Origin: Phytoseiulus persimilis | Lineage: Eukaryota > Arthropoda > Arachnida > Mesostigmata > Phytoseiidae | DNA length: 64,000 bases | Assembly (NCBI GenBank): GCA_037576195.1 | Contig: CM075103.1 | Coordinates: forward strand, 24,986,001-25,050,000 | Direction: 5' to 3' | In this document: one piece after another, positions 8,100 to 64,000 of the stretch | Layout of the letters: the number at the start of each line of letters is the position of its first letter | Position numbering within the stretch: the stretch's first letter is position 1 | Translations under genes and position numbers: made by a program | Notes under the pieces: generated by a model | Databases searched by the model: none | What the model saw: the letters and a program-made list of their open reading frames with translations, nothing else | Told to the model about the DNA's origin: nothing

Positions 8100-8557
8100 T
8101 CCGGTTCCGATCGCCGACCTCCTCTCCAGAAGCGTGGCTTAGTACACCAAGGCTTGTGGTTCCCCAACTGGCCGCCGAGCGGTCACAGCGGCGGCCAAAG
8201 CCTGAGCGAGGGTGAAGATTTCAAACCGCCGAAGAGAGCTTTACTACCGTGGCCGCACGAGATGCGGAACCTCAGCTGTGTTTGTGATCATGATGTCCGT
8301 GCTGGTGAAGCCGTCTGATGCCAGAGATGTTTTGAAGAGTGCTCTCGTATGTTCGTCGTTACTGTTGTGATAGAGAGAAGACATCGTGTGCGATCGCTGC
8401 TGATATGTGACTCCAATGCGGCCATCTTGTAACGAACTTTACATCTGACCGAAATTGTTCGTCACTCGAACGTTGTGCCTATCGCTTGCCGGATATTTGT
8501 GAAGTTCCCTCCTCGAGCGGACTCCCAACGAATGTCGATCATCCGCCCTCAACAACG

Positions 8558-13700: not shown

Positions 13701-16590
13701 CGGCCTGATTTGCGACCTCGACTCTCGGGCATAGTGAGCGGCGAGGAGAATTAACCGAAGTCAGAGCGAGCGTCACAGTCATCCAGTTTACTGCGTCAAC
13801 GAGCTCACTGTCCACCCTTCTCAGAAATCCTCTATACAAGAATCTCCTGCGGCGAAAACTGTCGTGCGATCGTCGCGCAGTGCTGCTTGAAATCTGATCT
13901 GGCAGACTAGGAAACTTCCCCTCGACACTCGCACGAAAGAGAGAGAGAGAGCACGAGCATCGTCTCCCAGAAGTTGCAGCACTGAGTGAGACACTCTCCT
14001 GGAGCCGCTTGATTGCCAGATTCTATTCTCTTCCCGAGAAGCAGGAATCCTCATCGTTCCATCAATGATTCCGTTTGGTCGGAGCCGAAAGTGATCTGAT
14101 GATGTGATCCATCATCTAAACCACCGAAGGTTCTGTCGAGCTCCCTGCGATCTGCAGGAGCTGGAGACGGAGTTGATGCAAATGCAGTCACACCTCGGTT
14201 GAAGCCTAACTCGACATTTTTTCGTCCGGCCCGGCCAACCATCTCCCTGCCGCGGCGTTCTTCTTCACTGAAACCCTCCTCGAACTGTTTCCAGACGCTG
14301 TATGGAACATTTTCGACCGAGTCCAACTTTCCAAAAGTTTCTCCTCGAGAATGGAGCCGAATTATGATTACAAGGTCGGAATTTTTTGACGCGCAGTAAG
14401 CGACGTGTATTTTGGGCTCCTCGAGAAATTATTGTTTTCTTTAAAAAAAGCGACGAAGCTGCTGAACTCTATATCTACGGAGGGCGGGGCGAACAATGTG
14501 ACTCAATGATGAAATGAAGAGGCGTTCCCGGGAAGTTCTCAAGTGTTCCTCATACGTTTCATAGTGATCGATGCTCTCTCCGAATATCTTCCACAGGTTC
14601 CACGGCTCCATCATCAGTGACTTCTCCCCGATTCTCGGTCCGATGGCGAGGAAGTAGTCCCAGGCGCGGTCGATTGGTTTTCAGAGAGCTCCGATATGTA
14701 ATCGGGAAGGATCTGGAGCAACCGGGTCGATCAGAAGACGAATATCCCACGGCTCAGACCAGACGCCAGAACCCCCGAGGGCCGTTCTCCACAGAGTCAG
14801 ATCCTGTCAGTCTCATGTGCCATTGTTTCGTATATCCGCGTATCAGCTTTTCGGGGCCGGACGGCGCATCCCAGCTCCGGGTTCGTCTTCAAGCAAAGTT
14901 GCTATACTCCTTCCCTATTTCGACGTCGCAGAATCTGAGACTAAGAACCAGCGGTGGCCGACTGGAGAGCTCCGCCCCCAATTTGCCCTGGGTCAGCTCC
15001 CTGTGACCACCGCGTTCTTTTTCGAAACGTATTGAGTTCTTTTCGAATTTACGAATACGGGAAGAAAATTGGAGACGGTCTTTATGACCAAAATCAGGTG
15101 CCCCGTGTGTTTTTCCCCTCTCATCATGCTCCAGAGGAGAATTACACAAGCAGGGCACGGGCCAAATTTGGTTGTTAGTGGAGCCTGGGAGTTCAGGCAA
15201 CTTTTCGAAACCTATATCTCTATCCATCTATCTATATATATAAAAGACGCCGGCCTCTCTAAGCTGTGATCCGAATAAACGCTAGGGCAGCGGCTCGGAG
15301 CTCGACGAAACCTCGCGTACTCACGCGGAATCGGGCCCAAATGGTTATAGGCCGCCTGATACTTTTCTTGAAAACCTCCGGGAGCCGGAATACGGAGGAA
15401 ACTCGACAACTTCCTTGTCGCTGGCCGCAGTATCTTCCAGTTCGAAAGGGCGCGACTCGTCCAACCGCTTTTCCCACGGTCACAAACCGAGAAAACTCGG
15501 AAACTTTGTCGTCGCATGCTGAATAATTTCTCTGTTCGAAAGAGCACGCCAAAAGCCAATGGTCTGCGGCGCGATCCTGTAGCGATTTTGGTAATGTGAA
15601 AAACGCGGTGCGCAGCGATTCGACTACGGCGGCCCACCCGATACAGGGAGTGCTCAGGTCGCCTTGCTTCCGAGCACGGTAAGGTTAACCTGCGACAGTC
15701 ACTTCCACGGCCCGACCGTCAACGCTCTTCCGCCGTTGCGCCCTCGGATCCACACCATTCCAAAACTACAAGGTAAATGTGAACCGTGAAAGAGATCAAT
15801 CATAAGCTTATGTTATCAACGATGACAGATACAGTTGACGCTGTTGACAGCGATCATGACGCCCTGGGCCACCTGAACCGCGAGTTCGGAGGAGAGAGCG
15901 CCAATCATGGTTATGAAGAACTTCAAACATTGAGACTGTTCAGTTAGATCGAAGTCGCTCAAGCCCGAACCCCGCAAAGCCAATCAGCACGACTTTTTTC
16001 TTCATTTCCCAATCAGTGGGAAAATATTCAAAGAGACCCTCGACCGTATAAATCGATACTGGCTGAAGCATTACCCATCCCCTCTCCTTTCTTCCCAGGC
16101 ATGGAACGAGATAAGTAGCACAACACTATCTCCTTCCGACTTACTAGATGAGAATCTCCGCGACTCATAAGAGAATTCCTGACCGAAGCTGGGGGAAGAC
16201 GAAATTCCTATAAGTACGTTGCGGATAAAACCATATCGATCTGATACGGGATCCTTTGGGTGATCTGCATGGTGGTCGAACCTCCTTCCGTCGGAAAGGT
16301 CGTCGATGGACGAAACGCGAAATCCAGGAATGGTCAATCAAATCTGGAACGTCCCCAGACCTCATCCTGGATCCGCCCAGAGAACAATTCGAGACAAATC
16401 ACCTCGGACATGAAAAGGTCCCCCCGAAGAGGATCATTGCGATAGGATAATGAAAAGCATGACGATGGAAATAAGCCTCCTCTATCATGGAGACAGATAC
16501 ATAATCTATTGAATGAATCACCTAGATGCCGCACATCAAGGGTCGACAGAGTCAGGGCCCCGGGACAAAATGGCTGGCGACCAGGAATCT
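10710..16590. other. Gene-poor stretch
   Basis: No gene could be supported. A frame at about 11120-11420 (+) reads like extracellular protein in places but is interrupted and matches nothing I recognise. A short GA microsatellite lies at 13935-13952. A TA-rich patch at about 15220-15245 is the only other composition feature. Confidence 0.45.
13935..13952. repeat. GA dinucleotide microsatellite
   Basis: About seven GA units in an otherwise unremarkable region. Confidence 0.8.
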
Positions 16591-16597
16591 GGCCCCG

Positions 16598-16792
16598 TTC
16601 ATGGAGGTGGTTCCTGGGTCGATCTGACCATACTTTTCAGGCTCCATGGGGGTGATTCCGAGGTCGGTCTGACCATGTCTCTTGGGCCAAGATTCCAAGA
16701 TCGACCTCACAATCACCCCCATGGACCACAAAAAGTACGGTCAAATCGACCTCGGAATCACATCCATGAAGCCTGAAAAGTATGGTCAGAGG
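16598..16792. mobile_element. Miniature inverted repeat of the 45-bp satellite family
   Basis: The left arm (about 16598-16684) holds two units with the order GGTGATTCC, then GGTCGATCTGACCATACTTTTC. The right arm (about 16686-16792) is the reverse complement of the same two-unit block, with only scattered differences. The arms are almost contiguous, so single strands would fold into one hairpin. The unit matches the 45-bp monomer of the large arrays at 57.96-63.89 kb (GGGTGATTCCG and CTGACCATACTTTTC are shared). The unit direction is inward (right, then left), the opposite of the large element. No coding capacity and no clear target-site duplication. Confidence 0.75.
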
Positions 16793-16799
16793 AAAAATA

Positions 16800-18160
16800 T
16801 GATTCAGACCGAGGCGAAATTATCCTCGAGAAGTCTCCGTAGGGCACGGATTCAAATACCTAGAGGAATTTCCATGATGCCGGGATAATGCAAATGGGGA
16901 GGGACAACTACGCTCAGATGCTATTCGTATCCGAAATCTGCCCCGGAAAGAGTTCTGGAGTTCAAAGATGAACTTCAGGTTGACCCAGAGGTACTCGAAG
17001 AAGAATCACCTAGAGAAGCACTCCTTCTCCCGGCGCCATGATCTGGAGCGTATCGTTAGCCCCGGGCGGAGGAAGTTTGTCGACCCCTGCCGCGGACGAA
17101 CTACCTCGGATGTCGCAGCGAAGCGCGATATTGTACGCTAGTTATTCTATAAATCTCACGGGATTGATTCATTGCGATGAGGGGATGATTTCGAAAAATT
17201 GCCTGAACTTCCAGGCTCTAGTTATCAGTGTATAGCGATAATCCGAGCGCATTCCACTCGGAGCATGGAATGAAGGGCTTCGCTCGTGAGCGATGGTACC
17301 GGCAAGCGACACGAAGAGCTCGACAAGCGAGGAAACTCTATTTCCAGGAACAACACAACTTGGATTTCATAGACGTAAAATCAGGTTTCGCTAAACGGGT
17401 TGAATCAATCGAGCGTCAACTTTCAAAAATCGATCGAATCAGGTATGAAATTCCATGGAGTGATATAATCGAGCTTGTGCTGTTCTAAATCCTTGTTCAT
17501 CCCATACCCGGCTGCACCGCTAGAATAACGTGCACGGATGAGGAGTTAGACTCCGCACCACCCCCAGGAACGAGATCACGAAGGGGTGGCAACACATAGC
17601 TGGTGGAATTCGTGTGGGAATATTTTTCGCGAATTGGTTGAGGCAAGTATGATATGCACGGAGTTTGAGTCTTCGGTAACATTCCTCCGACAAAACTGTG
17701 AATGTCTGACCGATGATTGCATCGGACTCCTGAAACTCTATCTAACCTCAAGACTCGATCCACGAAATCCTGGGAAGAGCAAGCATGATCTGTACTGTTT
17801 TCCGCATGCATTTCTGTCTCGATTTCACTCCGGAGCCCTTGAGGCATGTAGCTTTAGAAGACGGGGTCTGGAAGGGCTTTGGCAATTCACGTTCACTGTA
17901 TGACTTTTCCGTTGATACCCAAAGCTCACCAGATATCTCGCGAAATGGTGAACGAGTCATCGAGCAAAACTGATGTGAGTCCTCCGTTCATCGGGTCAAT
18001 TCTAAGGCCACACGAAGCGAATTCCGAAACGACGCAGACGGAGTTCTCGCGGTTGCCATCTCCAGAGGATATTCTCACGCGGTACTCTGAGTCTGCTATC
18101 TCTCAAGAGCGTAACGCTTGCCAATAACTCTGCATCGCCTTTAATGGTCGCCGAATCGTG
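16800..18160. other. Gene-poor stretch
   Basis: No gene supported. An 86-codon frame at 17228-17488 (+) is rich in Arg, Lys and Gln and could be part of a coiled coil, but I recognise no family and see no convincing splice context. Confidence 0.4.
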
Positions 18161-18167
18161 TACTTGC

Positions 18168-19394
18168 GCCCGAAGAGCCCGAAGACATCTGGAGCCCGAG
18201 TACATTTGAGCTCTAGGACACTGAGAGCTCAGGAGCATTTAGAGCCCAAACACAGTTTGAGCCCATCGACGTTTTGAGCCCAGCGTTCGTACAGGATTTT
18301 CGCGGAGTCCGGTTCTACGAATTCGGGAATTGCTACAGAATATGTTCGCTTCGATTAGCCCAAAGATGAGCCCTCAGTGTACGTCGGGGATCTCAGGTCC
18401 CCCGCCAACTAGGCTCCAGCCAGCGGCTCATGGTGCCCAGCACCGACGTCGCGTTGCCTCGCTGAGCATTCAAGGAGAGGCGCTGAGTCAAGAAGCGCCC
18501 CAGTCTTTCGTCTCCCGTTGCCCGCTCGAGGGCCTCCCCAACCTGGGCAATCAGGGTCCCGGTGTGGGAGCCGGGACCACCCATAGTCTCGAATGCGAAC
18601 GGCGAGAAGTGGTACCCGCTTGTCAACGCGGCATACTCGTTGATTTTTGCTGCCTCCGCCCTCGCAACGGCGTACCCTGCGCGGGACGCACCGGGACCGA
18701 CCAGGGAAGGGCTCAGAGAGTCGGTCACCGTTGCATCCCACACAAGGGCCCTCCCCCTGGAGAAAGGAATGAGCGTGAGGCCGTCAGGCCGCCTTCCGTC
18801 GTCGGGCATGAGACCAGAGAGCTCCAGCATGCAGGGTATCCCGGCTTAACGAAGAGCCCGTCCGAGGGTGTCGTTGAGAGCAGCGTGGCGCGATCGACGA
18901 CCAGCTGATAGGGCGCAAGACAGGCCGTGACGGGCGAGGAATTCGGGAATTGGAAAATTTCCTGATCGGAATCAGGTGATGAAAATCTTCTCCATAGATT
19001 CCATTTCTCTTTTGGTCCTCTCTTGAGAACGGTGCCTGTTGAGCGCGAACTTGAAACCTTGAAATTGAAGTTCGAGGGGATCCAGAAGCAGGCTCCATTC
19101 GCTTCGGCGCTGGAATGGTGTTTATTACCAATGGGGATCCCTCATTCATAAGGAACACATATGGTATCAACGAAGGAACATTGCATTGCGTAATCAGAAA
19201 CGTTCTCATCTCTAAAAAATCTTCGACCTCTCAGTATGGAGGCAGAGCTCAAGATGTCTTGGGGCCAAAAATTGGTTCGGGCTCAAGCGGTCCCTGGGAT
19301 CCAAATGTCCTCGGGCTCCATTTGTTCCTGAGCTCTGAATGTTCTTGGTCTTCAATTTACTCGGGCTCTAAATATATCCGGGCTCAAAATGACC
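18168..19394. mobile_element. Foldback-type element with 17-bp repeat arms
   Basis: The left arm (about 18168-18289) is seven degenerate 17-bp units of the form GAGCCCGAGTACATTTG. The right arm (about 19244-19394) carries the reverse complement (GGGCTC followed by an AAATGT-like core) at the same spacing, again with drifted units. The arms enclose about 950 bp of non-repetitive DNA, including a broken retroelement fragment. This is the layout of foldback elements, whose terminal inverted repeats are built from short tandem units. No transposase frame is visible. Outer borders and target duplication could not be fixed because the outermost units fade into flanking sequence. Confidence 0.65.
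18393..18939 (-). pseudogene. Broken retroelement fragment (nuclease-like C-terminal region)
   Basis: Read on the minus strand, this piece shows a conserved motif order that I associate with the C-terminal part of reverse-transcriptase-bearing elements common in invertebrate genomes: GLSC, then RHAALND, then DGRRPDGLTLIPF, then LVWDATVTD, and a terminal GNATSVLGT. The RPDG...VWDAT pattern resembles a PD-(D/E)XK nuclease fold. The copy is a broken fossil: only about 180 residues' worth is present, there is at least one break, and no reverse transcriptase part was found nearby. The exact element class is not certain. It lies wholly between the 17-bp-unit inverted arms at 18.17-18.29 and 19.24-19.39 kb. 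Confidence 0.65.
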
Positions 19395-31680: not shown

Positions 31681-31757
31681 GAGCAGGGGTGGGCAAAGTT
31701 CGGCCCGCGAGTGGACCACGGCGTTTGAGCAGGGCTCTGCGCATTTCGAGCGCTTAA

Positions 31758-33611
31758 GGGGGTTCCCTACTTTTGTTCATGTTCCTCGTTTTAAGCCCCT
31801 GTATGACCGAGAGGGCTGAAACTTCGCTTGGCCCTCCCTCGGCCCTCGAAACGAAGACTGAAGTTGGGGCATGGCGGGCAAAAAAAGGGAGAGGGCTCTA
31901 GCCCGATCTAACGAAAAACCTTCGAATTCGAGCGGCCAACGATATTCGCATCGAGAACGGATGGAGACGCTTTCGTTATGACTCCATATTCGGATTCCTC
32001 GTCGAAAATGCTGTTGATTGCAAAAAAAATTACTCGATTCGGCCAAGCTCTCATGTAGTTATGGCGGACACAAACCACTGAGTTAGTCCAGAATGACGTT
32101 TCTGGTTGATGGATCGTAGATATCTTCGCTCCTGGTTGAGATAATTTCATGAAATTGGGTTGTTTTATAGCCATACGTATCCCATACATGCACATCGAGT
32201 TTGATTCGATTAGGCCTAAGGGCAGCGGAGATGAGAGCGACTGCATTACTTCACACTCACTGCGCTAAACGTAAAGGACATTTTTGAACCGAGAACGGAC
32301 AGAGAAGCTTTCGGTTTGATTGCATGTTCGGATTCCTCATTCGAAATGCTTTAATTTCAAAAAAAGAAATGCTCGATTCGACCAATATTTCGCGAAGATT
32401 GAAATCCGAGCTCCGAATCGCTCAGATCACATCGAGCAGCTGATGGGGCACGCCTAATCTTTGCCGCCTTTCGACCTAGCTCGATGAAATTTTCTGTGTG
32501 TGTAAAGTCCATGGATGGCTATCGCAGGTCAAAACTTCATGAATTTATCTCAACCTGGAGCGAAGATATTCAAGCTCAACCAGCCAGGATCATCTTTCTG
32601 GACTATCTCGAAGGGTTGAACGATTCTTACTTCGCGGAATCTTGGTCGAATCAAGCTCTTCGTTTGACTGAAATCGTAGCATTTTCAATGAGGAATCCGA
32701 ATATGCAATCAGACCGAAAGCGTTTTTTCCGTTCTCGATCTGAAATCCGAGCTCCGAACCGCTCAGATCACATCGAGCAGCTGATGGGCCACGCCTAATC
32801 TTTGCCGCCTTTCGACCTAGCTCAATGAAGTTTTCTGTGTGCGTCAAGTACATGGGTGGCTATCGCAGGTCAAAATTTCATGAGTTTATCTGAACCTGGA
32901 GCGAAGATATTCAAGCTCAACCAGCCAGAATCATCTTTCTGGACTATCTCGAAGGGTTGAGCAATTCTTACGCCGTGAAATCTTGGTCGAATCGAGCCCT
33001 TCTTTTTTCGAAATCGGAGCATTTTCAATGAGGAAGCCGAATATGCAATCAAACCGAAAGCGTCTCTGTCCGTTCTAGGCTTCAAAAATGTTGTTTACGT
33101 TCAGCACAGTGAATTCGAAGTAATGCGGTCGCTCTCATCTCCGCTGCCCTTAGGCCTAGTTGAATCAAACTTGGTGTGCGTGTATAGGATACGTATGGCT
33201 ATCAAATTACCTAATTTCATGAAATTATCCCAACCAGGAGCGAAGATATATGCGATCCAACAACCAGAAACGTCATTCTATATTGACTCAGTGGTTCATG
33301 TCCGCCATAACTACATGAAAGCTTGACCGAATCGGGTCATTTTTTTTTAAATCGATAGCATTTTTGACCAGGAATCCGAATATGAATTCATAACCAAAGC
33401 GTCTCCATCCGTTCTCGATGCGAATATCGTTGGCCGCTCGAATTCGGAGGTTTTTCGTTAGATCGGGCTAGAGCCCTCTCCCTTTTTTTGCCCGCCATGC
33501 CCCAACTTCAGTCTTCGTTTCGAGGGCCGTGGGACAGCCAAGCGAAGTTTCAGCCCTCTCGGTCATACAGGGACTTAAAACGAGGAACATGAACAAAAGT
33601 AGGGAACCCCC
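31758..33611. mobile_element. TTAA-flanked foldback / long-TIR transposon
   Basis: The arms at 31758-32396 and 32974-33611 are close reverse complements of about 640 bp, starting GGGGGTTCCCTACTTTTG. Both ends are bordered by TTAA (31754-31757 and 33612-33615), a candidate target-site duplication as used by piggyBac, Kolobok and Sola3 elements. The loop and inner arms consist of a tandemly repeated module of about 340 bp that is itself related to the arm sequence, so the element is largely one module in four orientated copies. No transposase frame is visible: an open frame of 104 codons in the loop looks incidental. The element sits inside hAT-like DNA and is therefore younger than it. The high arm similarity also suggests fairly recent insertion or gene conversion between arms. 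Confidence 0.85.
32401..33076 (+). repeat. Tandem duplication of a ~340-bp module inside the foldback
   Basis: The block starting GAAATCCGAGCTCCGAA at 32401 recurs at 32742 (offset 341) with few differences over its length. Each copy contains a sentence also found in the terminal arms (TTCATGA.TTTATC, GGAGCGAAGATAT, AATCCGAATATG.A). Confidence 0.85.
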
Positions 33612-33999
33612 TTAAAGTCGACAAATCGCTTCCATGGAAAGAGATTCAACATTTCCTACGATCTTCCCCAACCCGAGTGAGTCTCCTCACCTTGGTGGAC
33701 CGGTGAGTCGTGTGTTCACTCTTCGTTAGTCACATCGAGGTGTTGTGATTTTTCTGGAGTTCAGATTTCTCATCCACTCCAAGGATACGATTCCTGAGCT
33801 TGAACCCTAATCTTCGCCGGATGTCGCTCTTTGGAGACATGTCATATGGACCACGAACACTTCGAGCTTGCCGAGATCCTCTGGCGGCCCGTGAGTTTGC
33901 ACGGCCGCATTGGTGCTCTGCTCTGCGGCCCGCGAAGCAGCTCGTAGGGCGCGCGGGCCAGATTTTGCGGCCCGGGTAACAGGGATAGGACGGCTAGAG

Positions 34000-40000: not shown

Positions 40001-43000
40001 CGAACACGAAACGTATCCTGTTCCTGCGGTCGGCGCTCAGGCCTCCGATTTTGAGGCTACACCGACGGATCTTTGGGGACTTCCCGGCTCATTCTGAAGT
40101 CTGAACGCACGCTCTCCCGGCTCATTCTGAAGTCTGAACGCACGCTCTCCCGGCTCCGAGGCTATTTCCGAAAACAAAGGCAAGTGCGCGAAGTGTTCCC
40201 TAAACCGAATTTGGGGCGAATGAAGCCAATAGAAGAACTTCCCTTCGCTCTCAGCATAATTGGTGACGCCCGAGGCGGTCGAAGCTCCTCTTCATTATCC
40301 TGCAGTTTCCTTGTTAGGTTCCTGTGAGGACGAGAACTCGGAAAAACAGAGGAGTTCCTCTCGGCCTTGGCAGCAGCCCGGCCCCTGCCCAGTAACGCCG
40401 ACAAGCCGTTGGATTCAAAAGGCGCCGGAGGACGTCACTCCCTTGTGGGCCTACGCCGAGGCCTGGGACGGTCGAGGCGTCTGCCGGAACCCCCTCTCGG
40501 AACAGGGTCTTGGAGGAGAACGCAGGACTCTGGCTCGCAGCTGAGGAGTGGGGAAAATCCCGGAGCGGGGCGTTGATAGTGTGGGTGCATGCAGCCGTTT
40601 CGCAACGCAGATAAAAACACGTCGTATGTGGAGCGAGCGTACCAGGACATCAGTCGCTTGACATCCAGCTGAAACAATGGCCTTCGATGTTTCCCGGAGA
40701 AGGTTTGGCTGTTCGCGGAACGCGTCGCACTGCTGCAGAGGCTTACGTTGTGTTAACAGGTCGATGCGATTTGCGTGTCGCGGCTCAATGCGGTTCTCTT
40801 CGCCCGAAGCGAAACGCGGAGGGATCGCCTCTAATCGTGGCGCTCGGATCCCGCGATTTTCCGAAACGACTCGCGGAGGCGTCTCGCGATGCGACACAGG
40901 AATAGAATCCCTCAGTTCTGGCTGTGTTCCAATGAAATGCTCGTAATGGATGCGGGAATCGCTCACTCAGAGGTCCCGGGAGCGCGTCTTGGCGCCATAG
41001 ACTATAATGCATTTCCGAAGCGTTGGAACGCTCGACCGCGGTGGTGCGCAGCAGTCGCATGGCAACCGACCTTGCCTTCCACAGCACTTGGCCGCATCGT
41101 ACTACGACGGCGAGTTCTACGAAGGGATTCTCCTGCAACTTCTCCTTCCGGTCTGTACCCCGCGCGGGTGACTACGTCCGTGATACGTTCACGCTTACGC
41201 TGGTTGAAATTCTTTGATCGATCTCTCTTCGATCGCTGGAAGCTAACCCCTCGGGATATTTTTAGGCGTAGAAACATCTGGACGGGAAACTCGGCTTTTT
41301 TTACCCCACACTTTGCATGGAAAGCCCGATGAACTCGAAGGAGCGAGCGAAGGAGGAGACGGGGACACCGCGCCGCACGGAACCGGGTATCCGGCGTTCC
41401 TCTTGTTTGAATACTGGTCCTCCTCTTGTCCGATTCACAGATCAAAACCTCGAAACTCGCTTTGAGATGGCTCCCTCCATTACAACTCGTCTGCTCTCGA
41501 AAGGGAGAGCATACATAGACTTCGCATCGGGAACACTTAAGGGTAAAGTGAACCTTCGATACGGCTCGGCAGGCCGGTCGGGTTGGACTGCAAGAGTAGC
41601 GCACTCATCTTTGTTCCCCGTGCAGAGCTTCTTGAGAATAACTCACTCCGAAGTGCTTCTTCGACCGAGAGTGCGAGGAAGTTGGATCCACAATCCGTGA
41701 ATATCAACTGCAGGACCGGAGACATACGGGCCAGGAACAGTTCTGGCGAGCCAAAGTTGCGTTGTTTTGCCTATTCGATCAGTGATACACCTTTTCCAGA
41801 TCTTCCGATTCCAGGAATGCTCGATCAAGACGGTGTTTCTCGTGTCATCCAGCTTCTATCAAGCATATTCATCTCTTGAAGAGTGAGCTGACAATATTCG
41901 ACACCCTGTAGAACGCTCGGTGCCACACAGAGCGGAAACGATACCTCGTCCCATCTGATCGCGTATATGAAGCAGATGAGAAAGAAATTCAAATGTTTCA
42001 CCCATAGGAAAAATCTCTCATCGTTTCCTCGCAGCATCAGTGATGGTGTCGGTGCTACGTTGAGCAAGGCGGGGAGTCCTAGTCTCCAAGATTGGGCCTG
42101 ATTTGCGCCAGAACGACGCGGGGCAGAGGGAACCGTCAAGACTAGAAGCTGTGTTCAAGCTGTGAAGAGCAGCTTTCAGCGTTGTTCTACGCGGCTACCT
42201 TTGAATACTCTCGAGAAGCATATCTCCATTCTCGGCCGACTGATCACCCGCTCGAAGCGGACCTCGCGACCATGCATGAGTCTCTCGAAATGAGAGGGGA
42301 ATCTCGCGGAGAATCACTCAAAGAGAACGAATTGGGAGACCCACGAGACGGAGAAGCTAACTTGAAGGTCGGGTAACCCAACACGTTGGAAAAAGACCCG
42401 ACTCCAGCTGGAAAATAAGAAACTGTTCCCGAGCAGGTATGTTCAGCGTTTGAGATTGAAAAGCTTCAACCAACAACATTGTGACTCAGTCAACCGCAAC
42501 TGCTCCGAACGAGCTGGTCGCGGGAGACAACGCGAATCACTTCAAACAGACCATAATTTCTTATGCTTAGAAAAATTCATCAAAACGCAGCACGAGGAAG
42601 TCCCAGGCCGATGATGTTCAATGTCCCTCGAGGAGACTGTCGGCCCAATTTCCGCTGATCATCAAGCCTCCCTGACCACCCGCATCCGTTGTTCGCTCGC
42701 GGAGGGAAGAGTTACAAGTGAGCGCAAACTTCCCAAAATGGCCGGTGTCGCCACTGATCATCATTCGCTACGAAACTTAACGTCAAAACCGATGCGGGCG
42801 ATGCTCAGATTGCAGCTCCGTCTCTGGGAGTTCTGTAACTCGGGGAGCGGATGAAAGAGGGCTCGTTTTAGCCTTCACTCGATGTCGGGGAGCTCTTAGA
42901 ATGTGCAAACGTCCGTGCTCCTCGTTCATTGCTGGGGCAAGACTATTTGGTTTCGGCTTCTAACTAAAGCTCTTCCCAGTGAGATGGACACGTCGCGACG

Positions 43001-43280: not shown

Positions 43281-43888
43281 GGGGATTCTCGGAGTTATTC
43301 AGATAAAGGGTCTAGCCGGATAAGGTAGGGTTAGGTGCCCCACCTCGACCGATCTTCTTGAAGACGACAGGATCGTGTTCCCTGAGTGGAAGAACGTATT
43401 CCTGAAGTTTTCAGCCTTTTCCGTTACCTAGATCCAAATCCATTAACATTAATTAAAAATAGTTCAATTAAATCCGCATGGTCTAGAGCAAACTTAAAAT
43501 CGTTATATCTCGAGAACCGCTGGGCGTACAGCGTCGAACGACAACTTTTTGGAAAGCTCTCATCGAGGGCAATCTTCTCATATTCGAAGGCATCAAAAAT
43601 CGAGGGTTTCCCAATTTAGACGGTTGATACGCTTCCCGTGGCCGGCCAAGAATCGGCGAAAACCAGAATGTAGCCCCAAGTACCGTCTTCCTACTCAAGA
43701 AGTTTCATCCAAATCGAAGCTTAGCCTTCGGAGTTATCGCTCCGAGTAGGTAACCGACCAGACCCCTCTCTCACTTTGGAGTCCGGAAATTCGACTCAAA
43801 CGCGCTTGAAACGTTCAAAATATTGCAAAAATCTCTGAGCCACATCCTGGAGGTTTTTTTCTCGTTTATCTTCTCTCCCTAGGAATCC

Positions 43889-44296
43889 TCAACCCTCGAG
43901 ATCGCTTTCTTCCGATGCTGTCTCGGGCTCCGAAACGAGAAAGAGATTCGAGAGTTCGGCCGCCGGTCGCCGAATCGGGAGCTCGTACCTAGCCAGAGCT
44001 AGGTAGTACACGGCAGCAGCCACGTGGGCACAGCATCCTACGGTCCGATTACCATTTTGGCATTCGCACCAGTAGGCCGAAATCCCTCCGAGATCGTTCT
44101 GGCAAGGCACGTATCGGATGAACACCTGCAAGGGATTGACGAAGACGGTTCGCCGTTTAGACAACAGCTGGAATCTCATACGGTGACCAGTAGAGGGAAT
44201 TCCGAGCTGACAGACAGCGAAGTGGAATGATGTGTCGACAGAATCGAAACCACTCAGACGATCCGAGTGAAATCTGTGTTCACTTTTCTCTGACAA
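43889..44296 (-). pseudogene. Truncated transposon protein with SWIM zinc finger (left-arm copy)
   Basis: The frame of 135 codons ends inside the left arm of the palindrome. Residues near 72-91 form a CxC...CxH zinc finger (AYWCECQNG, then TVGCCAHVAAAVYYL), the SWIM pattern found C-terminal to transposase domains in several DNA transposon families. An acidic Ser/Glu tail (SEPETASEESDLEG) follows. The part before the finger (RRTVFVNPLQVFIRYVP) continues into the palindrome's spacer. No catalytic DDE region is present, so this is only the C-terminal end of a longer protein and cannot be an active transposase alone. Confidence 0.65.
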
Positions 44297-44489
44297 TGAG
44301 TCAACCTGGTTCTGAGGGAAACGAAAAGATGAAGCCTACACGCCCGATAACTCTTCCGTTTGACGTGTCGGGATCTGATGTCGAGCCGCACAATATCCCG
44401 CATCTCTTTCACGTAGCTCATAGAAATATTCTCATCTTCATCCATTATTTTGGCCAGATTAGACATGCCCAAATGGTAATCGGACCGTA

Positions 44490-44639
44490 GGATGCTGTGC
44501 CCACGTGGCTGCTGCCGTGTACTACCTAGATCTGGCTGGGTACGAGCTCCCGATTCGGCGACCAGCGGCCGAACTCTCGAATCTCTTTCTCGTTTCGGAG
44601 CCCGAGACAGAATCGGAAGAAAGCGATCTCGAGGGTTGA
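44490..44639 (+). pseudogene. SWIM-finger transposon protein end (right-arm copy)
   Basis: The mirror copy of the left-arm frame: GCCAHVAAAVYYL, then LPIRRPAAELSNLF and the same acidic tail up to the stop. The first half of the finger (the CxC pair) is missing, because homology to the left arm starts only at about 44464. It shows that the palindrome arose by duplication of the 3' end after the coding sequence existed. Confidence 0.65.
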
Positions 44640-45239
44640 GGATTCCTAGGGAGAGAAGATAAACGAGAAAAAAAAACTCCAGGATGTGGCTCAGAGATTT
44701 TTGCAATATTTTGAACGTTTCAAGCGCGTTTGAGTCGAATTTCCGGACTCCAAAGTGAGAGAGGGGTCTGGTCGGTTACCTACTCGGAGCGATAACTCCG
44801 AAGGCTAAGCTTCGATTCGGATGAAACTTCTCGAGTAGGAAGAGGGTACTTGGGGCTACATTCTGGTTTTCGCCGATTCTTGGCCGGCCACGGGAAGCGT
44901 ATCAACCGTCTAAATTGGGAAACCCTCGATTTTTGAAGCCTTCGAAATCATGCGATCTGATCACTGGCTATATGAGAAGATAGCCCTCGATGAGAGCTTT
45001 GCAAAATGTTGTCTCTCGACGCTGTACGCCCTGCGGTTCTCGAGATATAACGATTTTAAGTTTGCTCTTGACCATGCGGATTTGATTGAACTATTTTTAA
45101 TCAATGTTAATAGATTTGGATCTAGGTAACGGAAAAGGCTGAAAACTTCAGGAATACGTTCTTCGACATAGAGAACACGATCCTGTCGTTTTCAAGAAGA
45201 TCCGTCGAGGTGGGGCACCTAACCGGCTAGGCCCTTTCC

Positions 45240-46245
45240 AGGATTCTCGAGCGATGCTCCTGTTTGAAGTTCAGATTATGCGGGAGAACGGTCAGAGACA
45301 GTTCTTCAGAATGTTCTGCGTCGTTAAAGTCTGGAATTCTGTAGAAACGCAGGAACGGCTTCGGGTCTCCATTGGCATCAGAACCCGATGGGAATCAAAA
45401 GGGACGACGGTGTGTTTCCACCGTGAAATTCTTTTCAATGAGATCGGTGAATCGAGAGACAATGAACGGGGCCCTATTGGATTGAGTCGTCGTACGAAAG
45501 ACGACCCGGGAGTAGTCATCCCCGGCCCTCGACGCGGAGCCCTGGGATCGGTGAATGGGAACAAAAGACCGCTTGCCATGTATAGTTCCAATGGGCGGAA
45601 CATGCTCTCTTTATATCCACCTCGGGTTGGTGTTGGAGTTCTGGAGACGAGGTCTCACCAGATATTGGAGGTCAAGTATCGGACGCAGATCGTCCTCTGG
45701 CCCCAAACACTGAGAGAGCCAACCGCCCGAGGAAGATGAGTTCAATGAGAACCGTCCTCGAGGAGAGGGCGTTCGCGGTAAGCTACAGCTCAAGCCTCCG
45801 GAATCGAGCTGTCGCTTGCGCTCTGACGGTTTTTTCGGAGGAGTCGCCATGCTCGAGCCGTGCGGACCGCCAACCAGTGAGGTGGAGGGGTGAGCTAGCA
45901 ACATATGTAGACACAGAGGCGGACAATGAAATAGAGCCGCCCTCAGAGATCGAAACTTCTTCCCGAACATCCGAAGCCTTTTCGAGCATGTCCCGATTGT
46001 CGATAATGGGGGAAGAAGATTCCTAGAGGAAAACGAGTGCTTCTCAATAGCATTTTCGAGAGGAAGAAATCCTATAATCACGGTGGGAATCGACTCCGTT
46101 CCTCACTAGTTTTCTGTGTTTTTCAGGTTGTTACCGAGGTCAAGTCACTTGGAACGGCGGTGGTTGCACCCATAAAATGGATCACATTGTGGCACAAGAA
46201 TAGAGCTTTTAATTGTTCCTGCGAGTCGTGGAATCGGACGCCTGG
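45240..46245. other. Gene-poor stretch between two transposons
   Basis: Frames of 161 codons (45254-45739, +) and 156 codons (45611-46081, -) overlap in antisense. Neither gives a recognisable domain. Probably non-coding. Confidence 0.4.
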
Positions 46246-55500: not shown

Positions 55501-55975
55501 GGAGAGCGGGGTCGTGCTTATAGCTCGGTCAGAGGTTGCTGGAGGCGCGGAGTGGGAGGATCGAGCCCGAGAGATTCGCGACTCTCGCTTCAGCCGCGGT
55601 GATCACGCGTCGAAACTCCGTGAATCAAAACAAAGCTTGAAGAGACACCGCGACGACATGGACTCTCTTTACCGAATGACCCCGGCCGACCGCGTGATCA
55701 AACAGACAGCACTCAAAAGCTAGCGGAGGTGATCTCACAAGTGGAGCTCGAAGAACCGTTTGATCGCACTCCACATCGACATCCGTCATGGTCACTTGGA
55801 CAGGGAGGCGAACACTTTGATACCCTGCTCGTCTCGGCATTCGGGCTAGCAGACTCCGGGACAGGGAACCGTTGCGAAGGCTCGTGAGCAACTGTTTGTC
55901 AGCGCGGCAGTGCCAATCAGCGGTCCGACTTGATTTTGGGACGGGTCGATTTGAGCGCAAGGTTGATTCAGAGGT
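52525..55975. other. Gene-poor stretch
   Basis: Nothing recognisable was found. Frames of up to 178 codons overlap on opposite strands and carry low-complexity Arg/Ser-rich translations. Confidence 0.4.
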
Positions 55976-55979
55976 TTGG

Positions 55980-56909
55980 GTCCGGAATGCCGAAAACCCG
56001 GAATACCGAAAACCCGAAATACCGAAAACCCGAAATACCAAACGCCCTGAATCCCGAAAACCCGGAATGCCGAAGGTGTTCCCCTCCCGTCGGAGAGCAG
56101 CTGAGACTTCTATGTCGAGCGCCGAGCCCGGCCGTGGAGGCTTACTCGAAAGCATTGACATTCACGGAGGACTGCCGGAATCATTCGCCGGAGCCTACCC
56201 GGATCATTCGGGAGCCGTTGTATGCTGGGTTGAGCCAAGCAAGGTTGTCAGGAATCTTGGGAATCTTATGACAGTCCTCGAAAGTTCGAGATTCTTTGAT
56301 GAATGCCAGTCCTGATAAGCCTGCTCTGCCCGGTTAACTTGGCGAAACTTGAAGTCGAATTTTCGGAAGAGCTCGCCTTGTTCCGTACAAGAGTGGCTGA
56401 TTGACCACGAAAAGCCCATACACGAGGCCATCTGAATCTGAAATCCTCATCTGTTCCCTTCAATCGTATCTGGTTGTATACGGAACCCGTGCCGGCGCTC
56501 GTTTGACGATCAACGTCAGCGCTGAATTGAGAACAGCATTGCAGATCTGGGAGCTATGCGCGGTTTCAAATAGGTTTTGGGTTGGTGGTGAAACGGGACC
56601 TCTTCGACCTCCGGGACCCACCAGCGAAGCGGGTCCCCGACTGTTCTCGTATATGTGAGCGGCTGCTGTATGTTGGATACGATTTATGAGGAGACTTGCT
56701 CACAGATTCGGATTTGAACCGTTCTGGAATCCATGGATGTTAGTGAGCGCCGTCGAATCCACCTTCATGGCTGGAATCCGCACTCGGCATAGAAGCCTCG
56801 GTTGATGTAACACGAGACCAAAATGATTTTCGGTGTTTCGGGTTTTCGAGATTTCGAGCGTTCGTTATTTCGGGTTTTCGTTATTTTGGGTTTTCGGGAT
56901 TCCGGGTGC
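55980..56909. mobile_element. Foldback-type element with 16-bp repeat arms
   Basis: The left arm (55980-56076) has about six units of CCGAAAACCCGGAATA. The right arm (56827-56909) has the reverse complement (GGGTTTTCGGTATTTCG-like), also about five units with drift. The arms enclose about 750 bp without a recognisable gene. Just outside, both sides carry a GATTCAGA-like word (left at about 55965, right on the minus strand at about 56915), so homology may extend a little past the arrays. Confidence 0.7.
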
Positions 56910-57127
56910 ACACCGATTCAGACGCAACCGTATAACCCCGCCTTAAGCTCGCCCTTCAAACAGATCCTTGGCATCGACGGCAATCTCAAGGGAGTGGGCA
57001 ACATCTCGGCCGGTGCCGGGTTGAATTCCGCGCGCGATTCCGAGAATGGAAGTCCCAGAAGATAGATATTCGCGACCGTAAACGATTATTTCTCACACGC
57101 GGGCCTCTGACCGACGGTTAGGGTTCG

Positions 57128-57851
57128 ACACGCCGAAAATTCGAACCCGAAAAGCATAAAGCCGAAAAGCATGAAGCCGGACACCTCCTCTCCCAACAGC
57201 GGAGTGGTCGGGACTGGTTTGGCGGGATGGAATTTTGGTGTCGTTCCGTCGATCTGTACTTTTGTGAGACTCCATTGGATGACACGCACCTGCCGCGAAG
57301 AATCAGTGAGCTCGATTCGCCGCTCGGTGCCAATGAGAGTCCCAGGCAGGTTACAGGCTCATTGAGGTGATTCGGGAGCACCGATACGTGATATCACCGA
57401 ACCGTCTGGTTCACTGTATCACTTGCTGACCACGGAAGACACCGGCCGTCGGTGGCTTCGAAGATTTAGTTCCAGACAGCTGAGCCATCGCTGATCGATT
57501 CCGGTTTTCCCTTTCCGGTAGGAAAAACAAGGCGTTGTAACAGCGTGTTCTGCGAATAGTACTAGAGCTGGAGGTGAAGGTGAAGGTTCATCATCAGATC
57601 TAGCAAGTTGACCTCGGAAACTTCAAGATTTGCGTTCAGCGAATTACTTCCTGTAGCAGCAAAACCTTTGCTCGAACACTGTAGACGCGGAACAGCGAGG
57701 CCTGAGCGTAACGAAGCTGCGATTCCTCCTCGCTGAACCAGTCCAGACCTGTTGGGAGAGGAGGTTTTCGGCTCCACGCGCTTCGGCGTCATGCTTTTCG
57801 GGCTCGATTTCTCGGCTTCATGCATTTTGGGCTCGATTTTTCGGGATCCAG
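57128..57851. mobile_element. Foldback-type element with 15-16-bp repeat arms
   Basis: The left arm (57128-57235) has CCCGAAAAGCATAAAG, CCGAAAAGCATGAAG, then ACCTCCTCTCCCAACAG and a GGACTGGTT word. The right arm (57722-57851) has the same order on the minus strand: CCCGAAAAGCATGACG and further AGCCGA-type units, then ACCTCCTCTCCCAACAG, then GGACTGGTT. The exact 17-bp word shared beside the arrays shows the arms are one inverted repeat, not two unrelated arrays. The middle (about 490 bp) has no recognisable gene. The right border touches the left border of the giant foldback that follows. Confidence 0.75.
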
Positions 57852-57956
57852 GTTATAGACCTCGCCGACTGGAGTTGGCCGCGCTGCGCGCGGTTGGACG
57901 GCGTTCCCTGGCATCGAGGCACTTTTCTCTCTCTCCACTGGGTCAGCATCATGGTT

Positions 57957-60900
57957 TCGAAAAGTATGGTCAGATCGGTCCCGGAATCACCCCTCCAGAA
58001 TTGAGAAAGTATGCTCAGATTGCTCCCGGAATCACCCCTCCAGACTTGGAAAGTATGGTCAGTTCGGTCCCGGAATCACCCCTCCAGACTTGGAAAGTAT
58101 GGTCAGTTCGGTCCCGGAATCAGCGCCGCCCCCCCCCCTCCAGACTTGGAAAGTAATGGTCATATTGGTCCCGGAATGGCCCCTCCAGACTTGAAAAGTA
58201 TGGTCAGGTCGGTCCCGGAATCGCCCCTCCAGAATTGAAAAAGTATGCTCAGATTGCTCCCGGAATCGCCCCTCCAGACTTGAAAAGTATGGTCAGCTCG
58301 GTCCCCGAATCGCCCCTCCAGACTTGAAAAGTATGGTCAGATCGGTCCCCGAATCGCCCCTCCAGAATTGAAAAAGTATGCTCAGATTGCTCCCGGAATC
58401 ACCCCTCCAGACTTGGAAAGTAATGGTCAGATTGGTCCCAGAATCACCCCTCCAGACTTGAATAAGTATGATTAGATCGGTCCCGGAATCACTTTTCCAG
58501 AATTGAAAAAGTATGCTCAGATTGCTCCCGGAATCACCCCTCGAGACTTGGAAAGTAATGGTCAGATTGGTCCCACGATCACCCCTCCAGACTTGGAAAG
58601 TAATGGTCAGATTGGTCCCAGAATCACTCCTCCAGACTCGAATAAGTATGATTAGATCGGTCCCGGAATCACCTTTCCAGACTTGGAATGTAATGGTCAT
58701 ATTGGTCCCGGAATCACCCCTCGAGACTTGGAAAGTAATGGTCAGATTGGTCCCAGAACCACCCCTCCAGACTTGAATAAGTATGATTAGATCGGTCCCG
58801 GAATCACCTTTCCAGACTTGGAATGTAATGGTCATATTGGTCCCGGAATCACCCCTCTAGACTTGGAAAGTAATGGTCAGATTGGTCCCAGAACCACCCC
58901 TCCAGACTTGAATAAGTATGATTAGATCGGTCCCGGAATCACCTTTCCAGACTTGGAATGTAATGGTCATATTGGTCCCGGAATCACCCCTCCAGACTTG
59001 GAAAGTAATGGTCAGATTGGTCCCAGAATCACCCCTCCAGACTTGAATAAGTATGATTAGATCGGTCCCGGAATCACCTTTCCAGAATTGAAAAAGTATG
59101 CTCAGATTGCTCCCGGAATCACCCCTCGAGACTTGGAAAGTAATGGTCAGATTGGTCCCAGGATCACCCCTCCAGACTTGGAAAGGAATGGTCAGATTGG
59201 TCCCAGAATCACTCCCCCAGACTCGAATAAGTATGATTAGATCGGTCCCGGAATCACCTTTCCAGACTTGGAATGTAATGGTCATATTGGTCCCGGAATC
59301 ATCCCTCGAGACTCGGAAAGTAATGGTCAGATTGGTCCCAGAACCACCCCTCCAGACTTGAATAAGTATGATTAGATCGGTCCCGGAATCACCTTTCCAG
59401 AATTGAAATAGTACGCTCAGATTGCTCCCGGAATCACCCCTCGAGACTTGGAAAGTAATGGTCAGATTGGTCCCAGGATCACCCCTCCAGACTTGGAAAG
59501 TAATGGTCAGATTGGTCCCAGGATCACCCCTCTAGACTTGGGAAGGAATGGTCAGATTGGTCCCAGAATCACTCCTCCAGACTCGAATAAGTATGATTAG
59601 ATCGGTCCCGGAATCACCTTTCCAGACTTGGGATGTAATGGTCATATTGGTCCCGGAATCACCCCTCGAGACTTGGAAAGTAATGGTCAGATTGGTCCCA
59701 GAACCACCCCTCCAGACTTGAATAAGTATGATTAGATCGGTCCCGGAATCACCTTTCCAGACTTGGAATGTAATGGTCATATTGGTCCCGGAATCACCCC
59801 TCGAGACTTGGAAAGTAATGGTCAGATTGGTCCCAGAACCACCCCTCCAGACTTGAATAAGTATGATTAGATCGGTCCCGGAATCACCTTTCCAGAATTG
59901 AAAAAGTATGCTCAGATTGCTCCCGGAATCACCCCTCGAGACTTGGAAAGTAATGGTCAGATTGGTCCCAGGATCACCCCTCCAGACTTGGAAAGTAATG
60001 GTCAGATTGGTCCCAGGATCACCCCTCCAGACTTGGAAAGGAATGGTCAGATTGGTCCCAGAATCACTCCTCCAGACTCGAATAAGTATGATTAGATCGG
60101 TCCCGGAATCACCTTTCCGGACTTGGAATGTAATGGTCATATTGGTCCCGGAATCACCCCTCGAGACTTGGAAAGTAATGGTCAGATTGGTCCCAGAACC
60201 ACCCCTCCAGACTTGAATAAGTATGATTAGATCGGTCCCGGAATCACCTTTCCAGACTTGGAATGTAATGGTCATATTGGTCCCGGAATCACCCCTCGAG
60301 ACTTGGAAAGTAATGGTCAGATTGGTCCCAGAACCACCCCTCCAGACTTGAATAAGTATGATTAGATCGGTCCCGGAATCACCTTTCCAGACTTGGAATG
60401 TAATGGTCATATTGGTCCCGGAATCACCCCTCCAGACTTGGAAAGTAATGGTCAGATTGGTCCCAGAATCACCCCTCCAGACTTGAATAAATATGATTAG
60501 ATCGGTCCCGGAATCACCTTTCCAGACTTGGAATGTAATGGTCATATTGGTCCCGGAATCACCCCTCGAGACTTGGGAAGTAATGGTCAGATTGGTCCCA
60601 GAACCACCCCTCCAGACTCGAATAAGTATGATTAGATCGGTCCCGGAATCACCTTTCCAGACTTGGAATGTAATGGTCATATTGGTCCCGGAATCACCCC
60701 TCGAGACTTGGAAAGTAATGGTCAGATTGGTCCCAGAACCACCCCTCCAGACTTGAATAAGTATGATTAGATCGGTCCAGGAATCACCTTTCCAGACTTG
60801 GAATGTAATGGTCATATTGGTCCCGGAATCACCCCTCGAGACTTGGAAAGTAATGGTCAGATTGGTCCCAGAACCACCCCTCCAGACTTGAATAAGTATG

Positions 60901-61595
60901 ATTAGATCGGTCCCGGAATCACCTTTCCTGAATTGAAAAAGTATGCTCAGATTGCTCCCGGAATCACCCCTCGAGACTTGGAAAGTAATGGTCAGATTGG
61001 TCCCAGGATCACCCCTCCAGACTTGGAAAGTAATGGTCAGATTGGTCCCAGAATCACCCCTCCAGACTTGAATAAGTATGATTAGATCGGTCCCGGAATC
61101 ACCTTTCCAGACTTGGAAAGTAATGGTCAGATTGGTCCCGGAATCACCCATCGAGACTTGGAAAGTAATGGTCAGATTGGTCCCAGGATCACCCCTCCAG
61201 ACTTGGAAAGTAATGGTCAGATCGGTCCCAGAACCACCCCTCCAGACTTGAATAAGTATGATTAGATCGGTCCCGGAATCACCTTTCCAGACTTGGAATG
61301 TAATGGTCATATTGGTCCCGGAATCACCCCTCGAGACTTGGAAAGTAATGGTCAGATTGGTCCCAGAACCACCCCTCCAGACTCGAATAAGTATGATTAG
61401 ATCGGTCCCGGAATCACCTCTCCAGACTTGGAATGTAATGATCATATTGGTCCCGGAATCACCACTCGAGACTTGGAAAGTAATGGTCAGATTGGTCCCA
61501 GGTTCACCGGTCCAGACTTGGAAAGTAATGGTCAGATTGGTCCCAGAATCACCCCTCCAGACTTGAATAAGTATGATTAGATCGGTCTCGAAATC
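57957..61595 (-). repeat. Left 45-bp satellite array with higher-order structure
   Basis: About 80 monomers (length divided by 45) of the type GGTCAGATTGGTCCCAGAAT, CACCCCTCCAGACTTGGAAA, GTAAT. Three monomer variants alternate: one with ATTAGATCGG and CACCTTTCC, one with GGTCATATTGG and CCCTCGAGAC, one with AGAACCACCCC and TTGAATAAGTAT. ATTAGATCGG recurs mostly every 135 bp (three monomers), with some 180- and 225-bp steps, which is a trimer-based higher-order repeat. A C-run interrupts the pattern near 58127-58138. The minus strand is open for 637 codons (59532-61445), a by-product of the period. Confidence 0.95.
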
Positions 61596-61601
61596 ACCCT
61601 C

Positions 61602-61727
61602 ACATCTTCCAGAAAACGTGCGGACGAACTGACAGACTATGCCGATCCTTACTATATATAATCGGCTTAGTCTGTCAGTTTGTCAGTTTGTCAGTCTGTC
61701 AGTTCGTCCGCACTTTTTCTGGAAGAC
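61602..61727. repeat. Palindromic centre of the giant foldback
   Basis: CTTCCAGAAAACGTGCGGAC, GAACTGACAGAC and GCCGAT (61605-61646) are mirrored by ATCGGC, GTCTGTCAG, GTTCGTCCGCAC and CTGGAAG (61661-61727) around a TACTATATATA loop. The right half is longer because TGTCAGTT-like 8-mers are repeated about four times, against one on the left. Confidence 0.9.
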
Positions 61728-61732
61728 ATGAA

Positions 61733-63885
61733 GGTGATTCCGGGACCAATCTGAACATACTCTCCCGAGTCTGGAGAGGTGATTCCGGTACGAGTCTGAC
61801 TATACTTTTCGAAAGCTGGAGGGGTGATTCTAGAACCGATCTGACCATACTTTTCAAAACGTGGAGGGGTGATTCCAAGACCAATCTGAGCATTACTTTC
61901 CAACTCTGGAGGGGTGATTCCGAGACCAATCTGAGCATTACTTCCCAACTCTGGAGGGGTGATTCCGAGACCAATCTGAGCATTACTTCTCAACTCTGGA
62001 GGGGTGATTCCAGGACCAATCTGAGCATTACTTCACAACTCTGGAGGGGTGATTCCGAGACCAATCTGAGCATCACTTCCCAACTCTGGAGGGGTGATTC
62101 CGAGACCAATCTGAGCATTATTTCCCAACTCTGGAGGGGTGATTCCGAGACCAATCTGAGCATTACTTCTCAAGTCTGGAGGGGTGATTCCGAGACCAAT
62201 CTGAGCATTACTTCCCAACTCTGGAGGGGTGATTCCGAGACTAATCTGAGCAATATTTCCCAACTCTGGAGGGGTGATTCCGAGACCAATCTGAGCATTA
62301 CTTCCCAACTCTGGAGGGGTGATTCCAAGACCAATCTGAGCATTGCTTCCCATCTCTGGAGGGGTGATTCCGAGACCAATCTGAGCATTACTTCCCAACT
62401 CTGGAGGGGTGATTCCGAGACCAATCTGAGCATTACTTCCCAACCCTGGAGGGGTGATTCCGAGACCAATCTGAGCATTACTTCTCAACTCTGGAGGGGT
62501 GATTCCGAGACCAATCTGAGCATTACTTCCCAACTCTGGAGGGGTGATTCCAAGACCAATCTGAGCATTACTTCACAACTCTGGAGGGGTGATTCCAAGA
62601 CCAATCTGAGCATTACTTCACAACTCTGGAGGGGTGATTCCGAGACCAATCTGAGCATTACTTCACAACTCTGGAGGGGTGATTCCGAGACCAATCTGAG
62701 CATTACTTCCCAACTCTGGAGGGGTGATTCCGAGACCAATCTGAGCATTACTTCCCAACTCTGGAGGGGTGATTCCGAGACCAATCTGAGCATTACTTCT
62801 CAACTCTGGAGGGGTGATTCCAGGACCAATCTGAGCATTACTTCACAACTCTGGAGGGGTGATTCCGAGACCAATCTGAGCATCACTTCCCAACTCTGGA
62901 GGGGTGATTCCGAGACCAATCTGAGCATTACTTCACAACTCTGGAGGGGTGATTCCGAGACCAATCTGAGCATTACTTCCCAACTCTGGAGGGGTGATTC
63001 CGAGACCAATCTGAGCATTACTTCTCAACTCTGGAGGGGTGATTCCGAGACCAATCTGAGCATTACTTCCCAACTCTGGAGGGGTGATTCCAAGACCAAT
63101 CTGAGCATTACTTCCCAACTCTGGAGGGGTGATTCCGAGACCAATCTGAGCATTACTTCCCAACTCTGGAGGGGTGATTCCGAGACCAATCTGAGCATTA
63201 CTTCTCAACTCTGGAGGGGTGATTCCAAGACCAATCTGAGCATTACTTCACAACTCTGGAGGGGTGATTCCGAGACCAATCTGAGCATTACTTCCCAACT
63301 CTGGAGGGGTGATTCCAAGACCAATCTGAGCATTACTTCACAACTCTGGAGGGGTGATTCCGAGACCAATCTGAGCATTACTTCCCAACTCTGGAGGGGT
63401 GATTCCGAGACCAATCTGAGCATTACTTCCCAACTCTGGAGGGGTGATTCCAAGACCAATCTGAGCATTACTTCCCAACTCTGGAGGGGTGATTCCAAGA
63501 CCAATCTGAGCATTACTTCCCAACTCTGGAGGGGTGATTCCAAGACCAATCTGAGCATTACTTCCCAACTCTGGAGGGGTGATTCCGAGACCAATCTGAG
63601 CATTACTTCCCAACTCTGGAGGGGTGATTCCGAGACCAATCTGAGCATTACTTCTCAACTCTGGAGGGGTGATTCCAAGACCAATCTGAGCATTACTTCA
63701 CAACTCTGGAGGGGTGATTCCGAGACCAATCTGAGCATTACTTCCCAACTCTGGAGGGGTGATTCCAAGACCAATCTGAGCATTACTTCACAACTCTGGA
63801 GGGGTGATTCCGAGACCAATCTGAGCATTACTTTCCAACTCCGGAGGGGTGATTCCGGGGTCAATCTGACCATATTTTTCAAAAT
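61733..63885 (+). repeat. Right 45-bp satellite array, nearly homogeneous
   Basis: About 48 monomers of the type CTCTGGAGGGGTGATTCCGA, GACCAATCTGAGCATTACTT, CCCAA. They differ mainly at two places (CCGAGACC or CCAAGACC; TTCCCAAC, TTCACAAC or TTCTCAAC). The outermost units at each end are more diverged. Compared with the left array, the typical monomer differs at about six of 45 positions. Plus-strand frame 61688-63904 is open for 738 codons, giving a 15-residue repeat (LWRGDSETNLSITSQ), but it starts at TTG in the palindromic centre and two minus frames are equally open. Confidence 0.95.
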
Positions 63886-64000
63886 CAGAATGCTGACCCA
63901 ATGAAGGGAGAGAAAAGTGCCTCGATGGCAGGGAGCACCGTCCAACCGCGCGCAGCGCGGCCGACTCCAGTCGGCCAAAGGCCGGCTGGTTATATATAGC

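Follow-up and report, generated by a model that had tools for sequence, protein, structure and literature searches.

The window (the whole stretch of DNA that was analyzed; 64,000 bases, 51.5% G+C, without N) contains one clear gene, a DEPDC1-like piece at 8486-10084 on the plus strand, which consists of a single open exon of 532 amino acids with a DEP domain (E = 1.5e-14) and whose product has DEP domain-containing protein 1 as its best match among solved structures; this gene suggests that the DNA comes from an animal. No tRNA was found in the window by ARAGORN, and no Rfam family matched at gathering scores. The focal element is a palindrome of about 6 kb at the right end of the window that is able to fold back and whose arms consist of dozens of copies of one short repeat running in opposite directions. 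Its features, together with the diverged relatives of its repeat unit, are:

16598-16790, no strand: inverted pair of diverged 45-bp unit relatives outside the focal element, about two per strand (dimer profile; arm match)
57851-57857, plus strand: left copy of the candidate target site duplication GGTTATA (7-bp direct repeat, weak)
57864-57948, plus strand: left terminal domain, 85 bp
57957-61598, minus strand: left array; 81 units, each about 45 bp, in higher-order repeats of three and four units (TRF and unit cutting; outer limit from the unit table)
61605-61638, plus strand: left inner domain, 34 bp
61639-61692, no strand: center, with a small hairpin (GCCGAT/ATCGGC) and 8-bp tandem repeats of the AGTTTGTC type (TRF, inverted-arm match, folding)
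61693-61726, minus strand: right inner domain, 34 bp (alignment with the left inner domain)
61733-63886, plus strand: right array, uniform; 48 units, each 45 bp (TRF and unit cutting; arm limit 63886)
63891-63975, minus strand: right terminal domain, 85 bp (inverted match to the left terminal domain)
63967-63989, no strand: right-tip hairpin, 10-bp stem and 3-nt loop (folding against shuffles)
63988-63994, plus strand: right copy of GGTTATA (7-bp direct repeat, weak)

The order of domains is the same in both arms: an 85-bp terminal domain, a 45-bp tandem array and a 34-bp inner domain. From terminal to inner domain the left arm measures 3,775 bp (57864-61638) and the right arm 2,283 bp (61693-63975), and the opposed arms are 79% complementary without gaps over 2,194 nt at a spacing of 54 nt. 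The terminal domains (57864-57948 against 63975-63891) are identical at 78 of 85 positions (91.8%; E = 7e-28) and the inner domains at 33 of 34 (61605-61638 against inverted 61693-61726, counted on the MAFFT alignment). The predicted folding energy of the center (61600-61735) is -43.8 kcal/mol, compared with a shuffle mean of -12.5 (z = -11.65; none of 200 shuffles was as good). Both arrays continue into common outer and common inner sequence and are thus parts of two inverted repeats. Two opposite 45-bp arrays, a palindromic center and a foldback anatomy had been proposed in the initial annotation, and all are borne out, by the TRF arrays and the units on opposite strands, by the folding of the center, and by inverted repeats of three domains as in the published layout of Tetris. 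The unique ends described there as inverted copies of each other do form a matching pair, but the left end of the match lies at 57864 and not at 57852; the right border, which had been placed beyond 64 kb, may lie inside the window, as the match ends at 63975 and GGTTATA follows at 63988-63994.

TRF reported the left array at 58135-61599 with periods of 135 and 180 bp, i.e. three and four times 45 bp, and the right array at 61733-63873 with a period of 45 bp. Units were cut against one consensus, which yielded 81 on the minus strand (left) and 48 on the plus strand (right), incomplete edge units included; in both arrays they read from the center outwards. Four of the 45 columns differ between the left and the right consensus unit, and the mean unit distance is 14.0% in the left interior (L04-L70), 3.5% in the right interior (R05-R46) and 18.4% between the two sets. 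In the left array a unit most resembles the one three places away (3.82 differences at lag 3, 7.51 at lag 1), which is the mark of higher-order repeats, whereas lags 1 to 15 in the right array all give 1.46-1.70 differences. A FastTree tree that includes all 129 units places the 44 units R04-R47 in a single exact group (support 0.77), outside which the right edge units R01-R03 and R48 fall. The smallest distance between a left and a right unit is 5/45, no left unit being within 4/45 of a right one. Exact blocks are repeated in both arrays, 336 bp long with an offset of 10 units in the right one and 264 bp long with an offset of 11 units in the left one. These arm-specific unit groups and offset block repeats indicate that the arrays expanded and were homogenized separately, and no exchange between the arms was seen in the comparison of the 81 left with the 48 right units. 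Unequal exchange would be the natural mechanism behind this growth. The contrast between the arms is the most unusual trait of the element. For Tetris the unit has been proposed to derive from the terminal or inner domain; a corresponding origin of the 45-bp unit was not supported here, the lowest P among 16 comparisons being 0.098 (local alignments, 1,000 shuffles each).

Only about 300 bases of the focal element lie outside the arrays, which leaves no room for a transposase gene, and apart from two array ORFs it contains no ORF of at least 200 amino acids. The two array ORFs (637 and 738 amino acids) share one frame of the unit, and taken together they exceed the cut-off for eight Pfam families, which might point to a repeat protein with units of 15 residues. 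However, three of the six frames are open in each consensus unit, the 11 variable columns of R05-R46 split 3, 4 and 4 over the codon positions, and the eight Pfam families are mutually unrelated, seven of them without any single passing stretch, as repetitive sequence would give. On the strength of the codon-position spread and the unrelated Pfam matches we rejected protein-coding arrays, the probability of which we consider close to negligible, and the earlier observation that no transposase is visible holds. A transposase of the MULE type or with a PHD finger, as in Rehavkus, was not detected by Pfam in the 27 scanned ORFs of the window (of 459 open stretches of at least 65 amino acids up to position 57,900); the sole trace is a SWIM fragment below the cut-off in another element.

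GGTTATA brackets the focal element as a 7-bp direct repeat and weakly suggests a target site duplication: a match of at least 7 bp between the flanks is expected by chance with a probability of 0.022 for shuffled flanks and 0.027 for random window pairs (20,000 trials each). Unmatched tips of 6 and 12 bp, which are dissimilar, lie between the inverted repeat and GGTTATA. Such tips are not fatal to a transposon reading, because most Tm1 elements are described as carrying dissimilar 7-bp motifs outside their terminal inverted repeats (TIRs) (PMC3169594). A looser match between the flanks, CAGGTTATA against CTGGTTATA, agrees at 8 of 9 positions, and under the same rule, which accepts 8 exact bases, or 9-10 bp containing one mismatch, at up to 60 bp, about a quarter of random pairs score as well (24.9% of 1,500). 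The right-tip hairpin was equalled by 3 of 200 shuffles; folding revealed no counterpart at the left tip, which does not stand out from shuffles (19 of 200).

Inverted-repeat elements are common in the neighborhood, as self-comparison of the first 57,850 bases at E < 1e-3 yielded 13 inverted and 4 direct matches, against none of either kind in each of ten dinucleotide shuffles. Several of the 13 inverted matches belong to one compound element, and they were treated as nine units (A to H and the nested F2). Exact direct repeats of at least 8 bp within 60 bp outside the arms are present in three of the nine (G, E and F2), compared with 5.2% of random pairs, and were not found for A, B, C, D, F and H. 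Element G (55965-56922), the arms of which contain 16-bp tandem units of the CCGGAATACCGAAAAC type, has the 8-bp direct repeat GATTCAGA just outside, 9 and 7 bp from its arms, and is a second, small foldback-like element. The direct repeat of F2, TGCAGACTC, lies 41 and 28 bp outside its arms. Element H (57132-57850), an inverted repeat whose arms (76% over 102 bp) contain tandem units of the CCGAAAAGCAT type, is directly adjoined at its right end by the focal element. Element E (43283-45249) has inverted-repeat arms at 43329-44063 and 44465-45224 (93%). On their outer sides, at distances of 37 and 16 bp from the BLAST arms, lies the exact 9-bp direct repeat GGATTCTCG; visual inspection showed another short inverted match in part of the gap between arm and GGATTCTCG. 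Element E includes the SWIM-like fragment (43892-44335, minus strand; E = 0.0018, 18.2 bits, below the Pfam cut-off of 19.6) and is possibly a Mutator-like element. SWIM fingers are described for some MULE groups, and MULE target duplications of 8-11 bp are given in the same source (PMC6446971). No match at E < 1e-3 connects element E with the focal element, and E thus does not name the mobilizer of the latter.

A search for further copies of the terminal segment, suggested in the initial annotation for the genome and run here within the 64-kb window, recovered the segment only as the inverted pair of the focal element, and the first 57,850 bases contain no additional one (the best E-values were 0.3 with nhmmer and 0.22 with blastn). 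Pattern scans of viral and prokaryotic contig collections with 20 bases of the terminal segment and 24 positions of the unit gave no match, nor did a blastn search of the terminal segment against phages, all of which has little bearing on copies in animals. Sequence strings of the element were not found in literature text, where strings split over lines or placed in supplements would escape. Relatives of the unit do occur 41 kb away, at 16598-16790. A dimer profile detected them on the plus strand (E = 2.9e-8) and, in two overlapping matches, on the minus strand (E = 0.0019 and 0.0044), whereas a single-unit profile gave significance only for the first plus-strand unit (E = 0.0012; others 0.021, 0.19 and 0.76). 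Their inverted arms are identical at 60 of 73 positions, with a score of 81 compared with at most 27 in 500 shuffles. The units face the center, the reverse of the arrangement in the focal element, and no terminal segment was found near them. These relatives show that the unit family is wider than the focal element; they do not show spread by transposition. The earlier proposal that transposition may spread the satellite is not supported in the window, where the only other unit-like repeats found have reversed polarity and lack the terminal segment. A 30-bp terminal inverted repeat (93%), its copies 2 kb apart (15181-17218), encloses the relatives; no target duplication was found around it. 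Element B has a terminal repeat that matches the edge of the left array over 13 bases, which was taken as chance (E = 0.23).

The focal element has long inverted repeats made of short tandem units, the structure on which the foldback class is based. Tetris, a foldback element of Drosophila virilis, is described with TIRs composed of an outer flanking, a tandem-repeat and an inner domain and without transposase, and its repeats also form satellite arrays (PMC4079207); the three-domain TIR and the absence of a transposase are common to both elements. By description, Tetris is set apart by its unit of about 220 bp, an outer domain of up to 866 bp, TIRs of up to 1,735 bp and target duplications of 8-10 bp in several copies (PMC4079207), compared with 45 bp, 85 bp, arms of 3.8 and 2.3 kb and a single copy here. 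Rehavkus-1_TC of Tribolium castaneum, with TCsat23, likewise carries tandem satellite arrays within the inverted termini of a DNA transposon, but is reported with a 164-bp unit, mostly five and eight monomers, a length of 9.5 kb and several copies (PMC10218199), whereas the focal element contains no gene and its 45-bp units number 81 and 48. For Rehavkus, 9-bp target duplications and a minisatellite are mentioned (PMC6446971). Tm1, a Mutator/foldback family of root-knot nematodes, resembles the focal element in TIRs of short tandem units, unequal in number at the two ends, and in dissimilar outer tips; it differs, in the account given, by a 14-bp unit in 1-9 copies, a transposase in some copies and common 9-bp target duplications (PMC3169594). 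Galileo of Drosophila mojavensis also has long TIRs with internal tandem repeats, the longest in transposase-less copies, but the repeat is of about 210 bp in two or three copies, the TIRs reach about 1,260 bp and a transposase of the P superfamily is known (PMC3573991). Cg_HINE, non-autonomous Helentrons of the Pacific oyster, are mobile and contain satellite-like arrays as central repeats (PMC7492417), in contrast to the inverted arms of the focal element. TIR-derived satellites, including those of Tetris and a Xenopus MITE, are covered in a review (PMC9659126), and TIRs of arthropod MULEs are stated to reach 1,193 bp (PMC13359780). The focal arms are large beside the TIRs described in these sources for Tetris, Galileo, Tm1 and arthropod MULEs.

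The focal element is probably a non-autonomous foldback transposon (class II, TIR type) without a gene, the two arrays of which have grown separately. This reading is supported by the equal domain order, the shared inner and outer junctions, the sharp-ended matching terminal domains, the candidate target duplication, the many inverted-repeat elements nearby, the separate histories of the arms and the layout shared with Tetris and Rehavkus-1_TC; against it stand the single copy, the missing transposase, the weak and asymmetric target duplication, and the unit relatives at 16.6 kb with reversed polarity and without terminal domain. A transposase encoded elsewhere in the genome might recognize the ends of the element and move it by cut-and-paste, leaving a target duplication of 7-9 bp. 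Of the arrays, which have diverged, the left has been homogenized into a higher-order-repeat satellite of 81 units and the right, independently, into a uniform array of 48; unequal exchange would have driven both. Of the initial view that the satellite is part of a transposon, the structural part stands, the array being integral to both arms; mobility is weakly suggested by the target duplication around the single copy examined.

An inverted duplication that never moved would yield identical anatomy, and anatomy by itself cannot tell duplication from transposon. A unique segment and an ordinary minisatellite could have been duplicated once, by template switch or break repair at the small hairpin, with the arms diverging later and the whole never being mobile; only a single copy is known, the terminal domain is absent elsewhere in the first 57,850 bases, and unit relatives occur without it, all of which fits such an event. 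The candidate target duplication GGTTATA does not, and neither do surroundings rich in inverted-repeat elements, among them G and E with outer direct repeats of 8-9 bp, close to the arms in G and at a distance in E. We regard a one-off duplication as unlikely, though as a serious alternative. Long arrays are prone to misassembly, and near 58130 the left array contains an interrupting run of C, which would be in line with an artefact of hairpin reads or with two separate arrays having been misjoined. However, a hairpin read would give near-identical arms, whereas the arms here are of unequal length, have different higher-order structure and disagree at 4 of 45 consensus columns; moreover, the main right-arm units are a separate group in the unit tree, and the inner and outer domains are common to both arms. 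Given the differing arm lengths and repeat organization and the right-arm unit group, it is very unlikely that two strands of one molecule were misread as a palindrome. Some misjoins are conceivable, and an assembly artefact as a whole seems highly improbable.

The palindrome looks like a transposon that lacks its own enzyme, and elements of this kind have been described from flies, beetles and nematodes. Satellites can be supplied by the termini of foldback or Rehavkus elements, a principle that is already in print (PMC4079207, PMC10218199), which limits the surprise. If mobile, the element would be a large example of satellite growth inside a transposon. As the arms share origin, neighborhood and age, their differing repeat organization is a within-locus comparison that bears on the rise of higher-order repeats and on how little inverted arrays exchange units. 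It is possible, though less likely than not, that one mobile palindrome carries two arrays of common origin on different courses, one toward higher-order repeats and one toward uniformity, without detectable exchange between the arms. If so, satellites and their higher-order structure would originate within the foldback elements of this genome, which would act as nurseries and would have given rise to the dispersed 45-bp family with its diverged inverted relative 41 kb away.

Element D (31754-33615) is an inverted repeat with arms of about 640 bp at 90% identity, an internal 341-bp tandem duplication and TTAA at its start and end; TTAA is the target of piggyBac and Kolobok elements. Pair C (18175-19385) is inverted, with 73% identity over 107 bp and 17-bp tandem units at the left end, and element A (351-614) is a short inverted repeat of 264 bp with a 27-bp terminal match (96%). 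A perfect 33-bp tandem repeat of 2.3 copies is located at 40082-40156.
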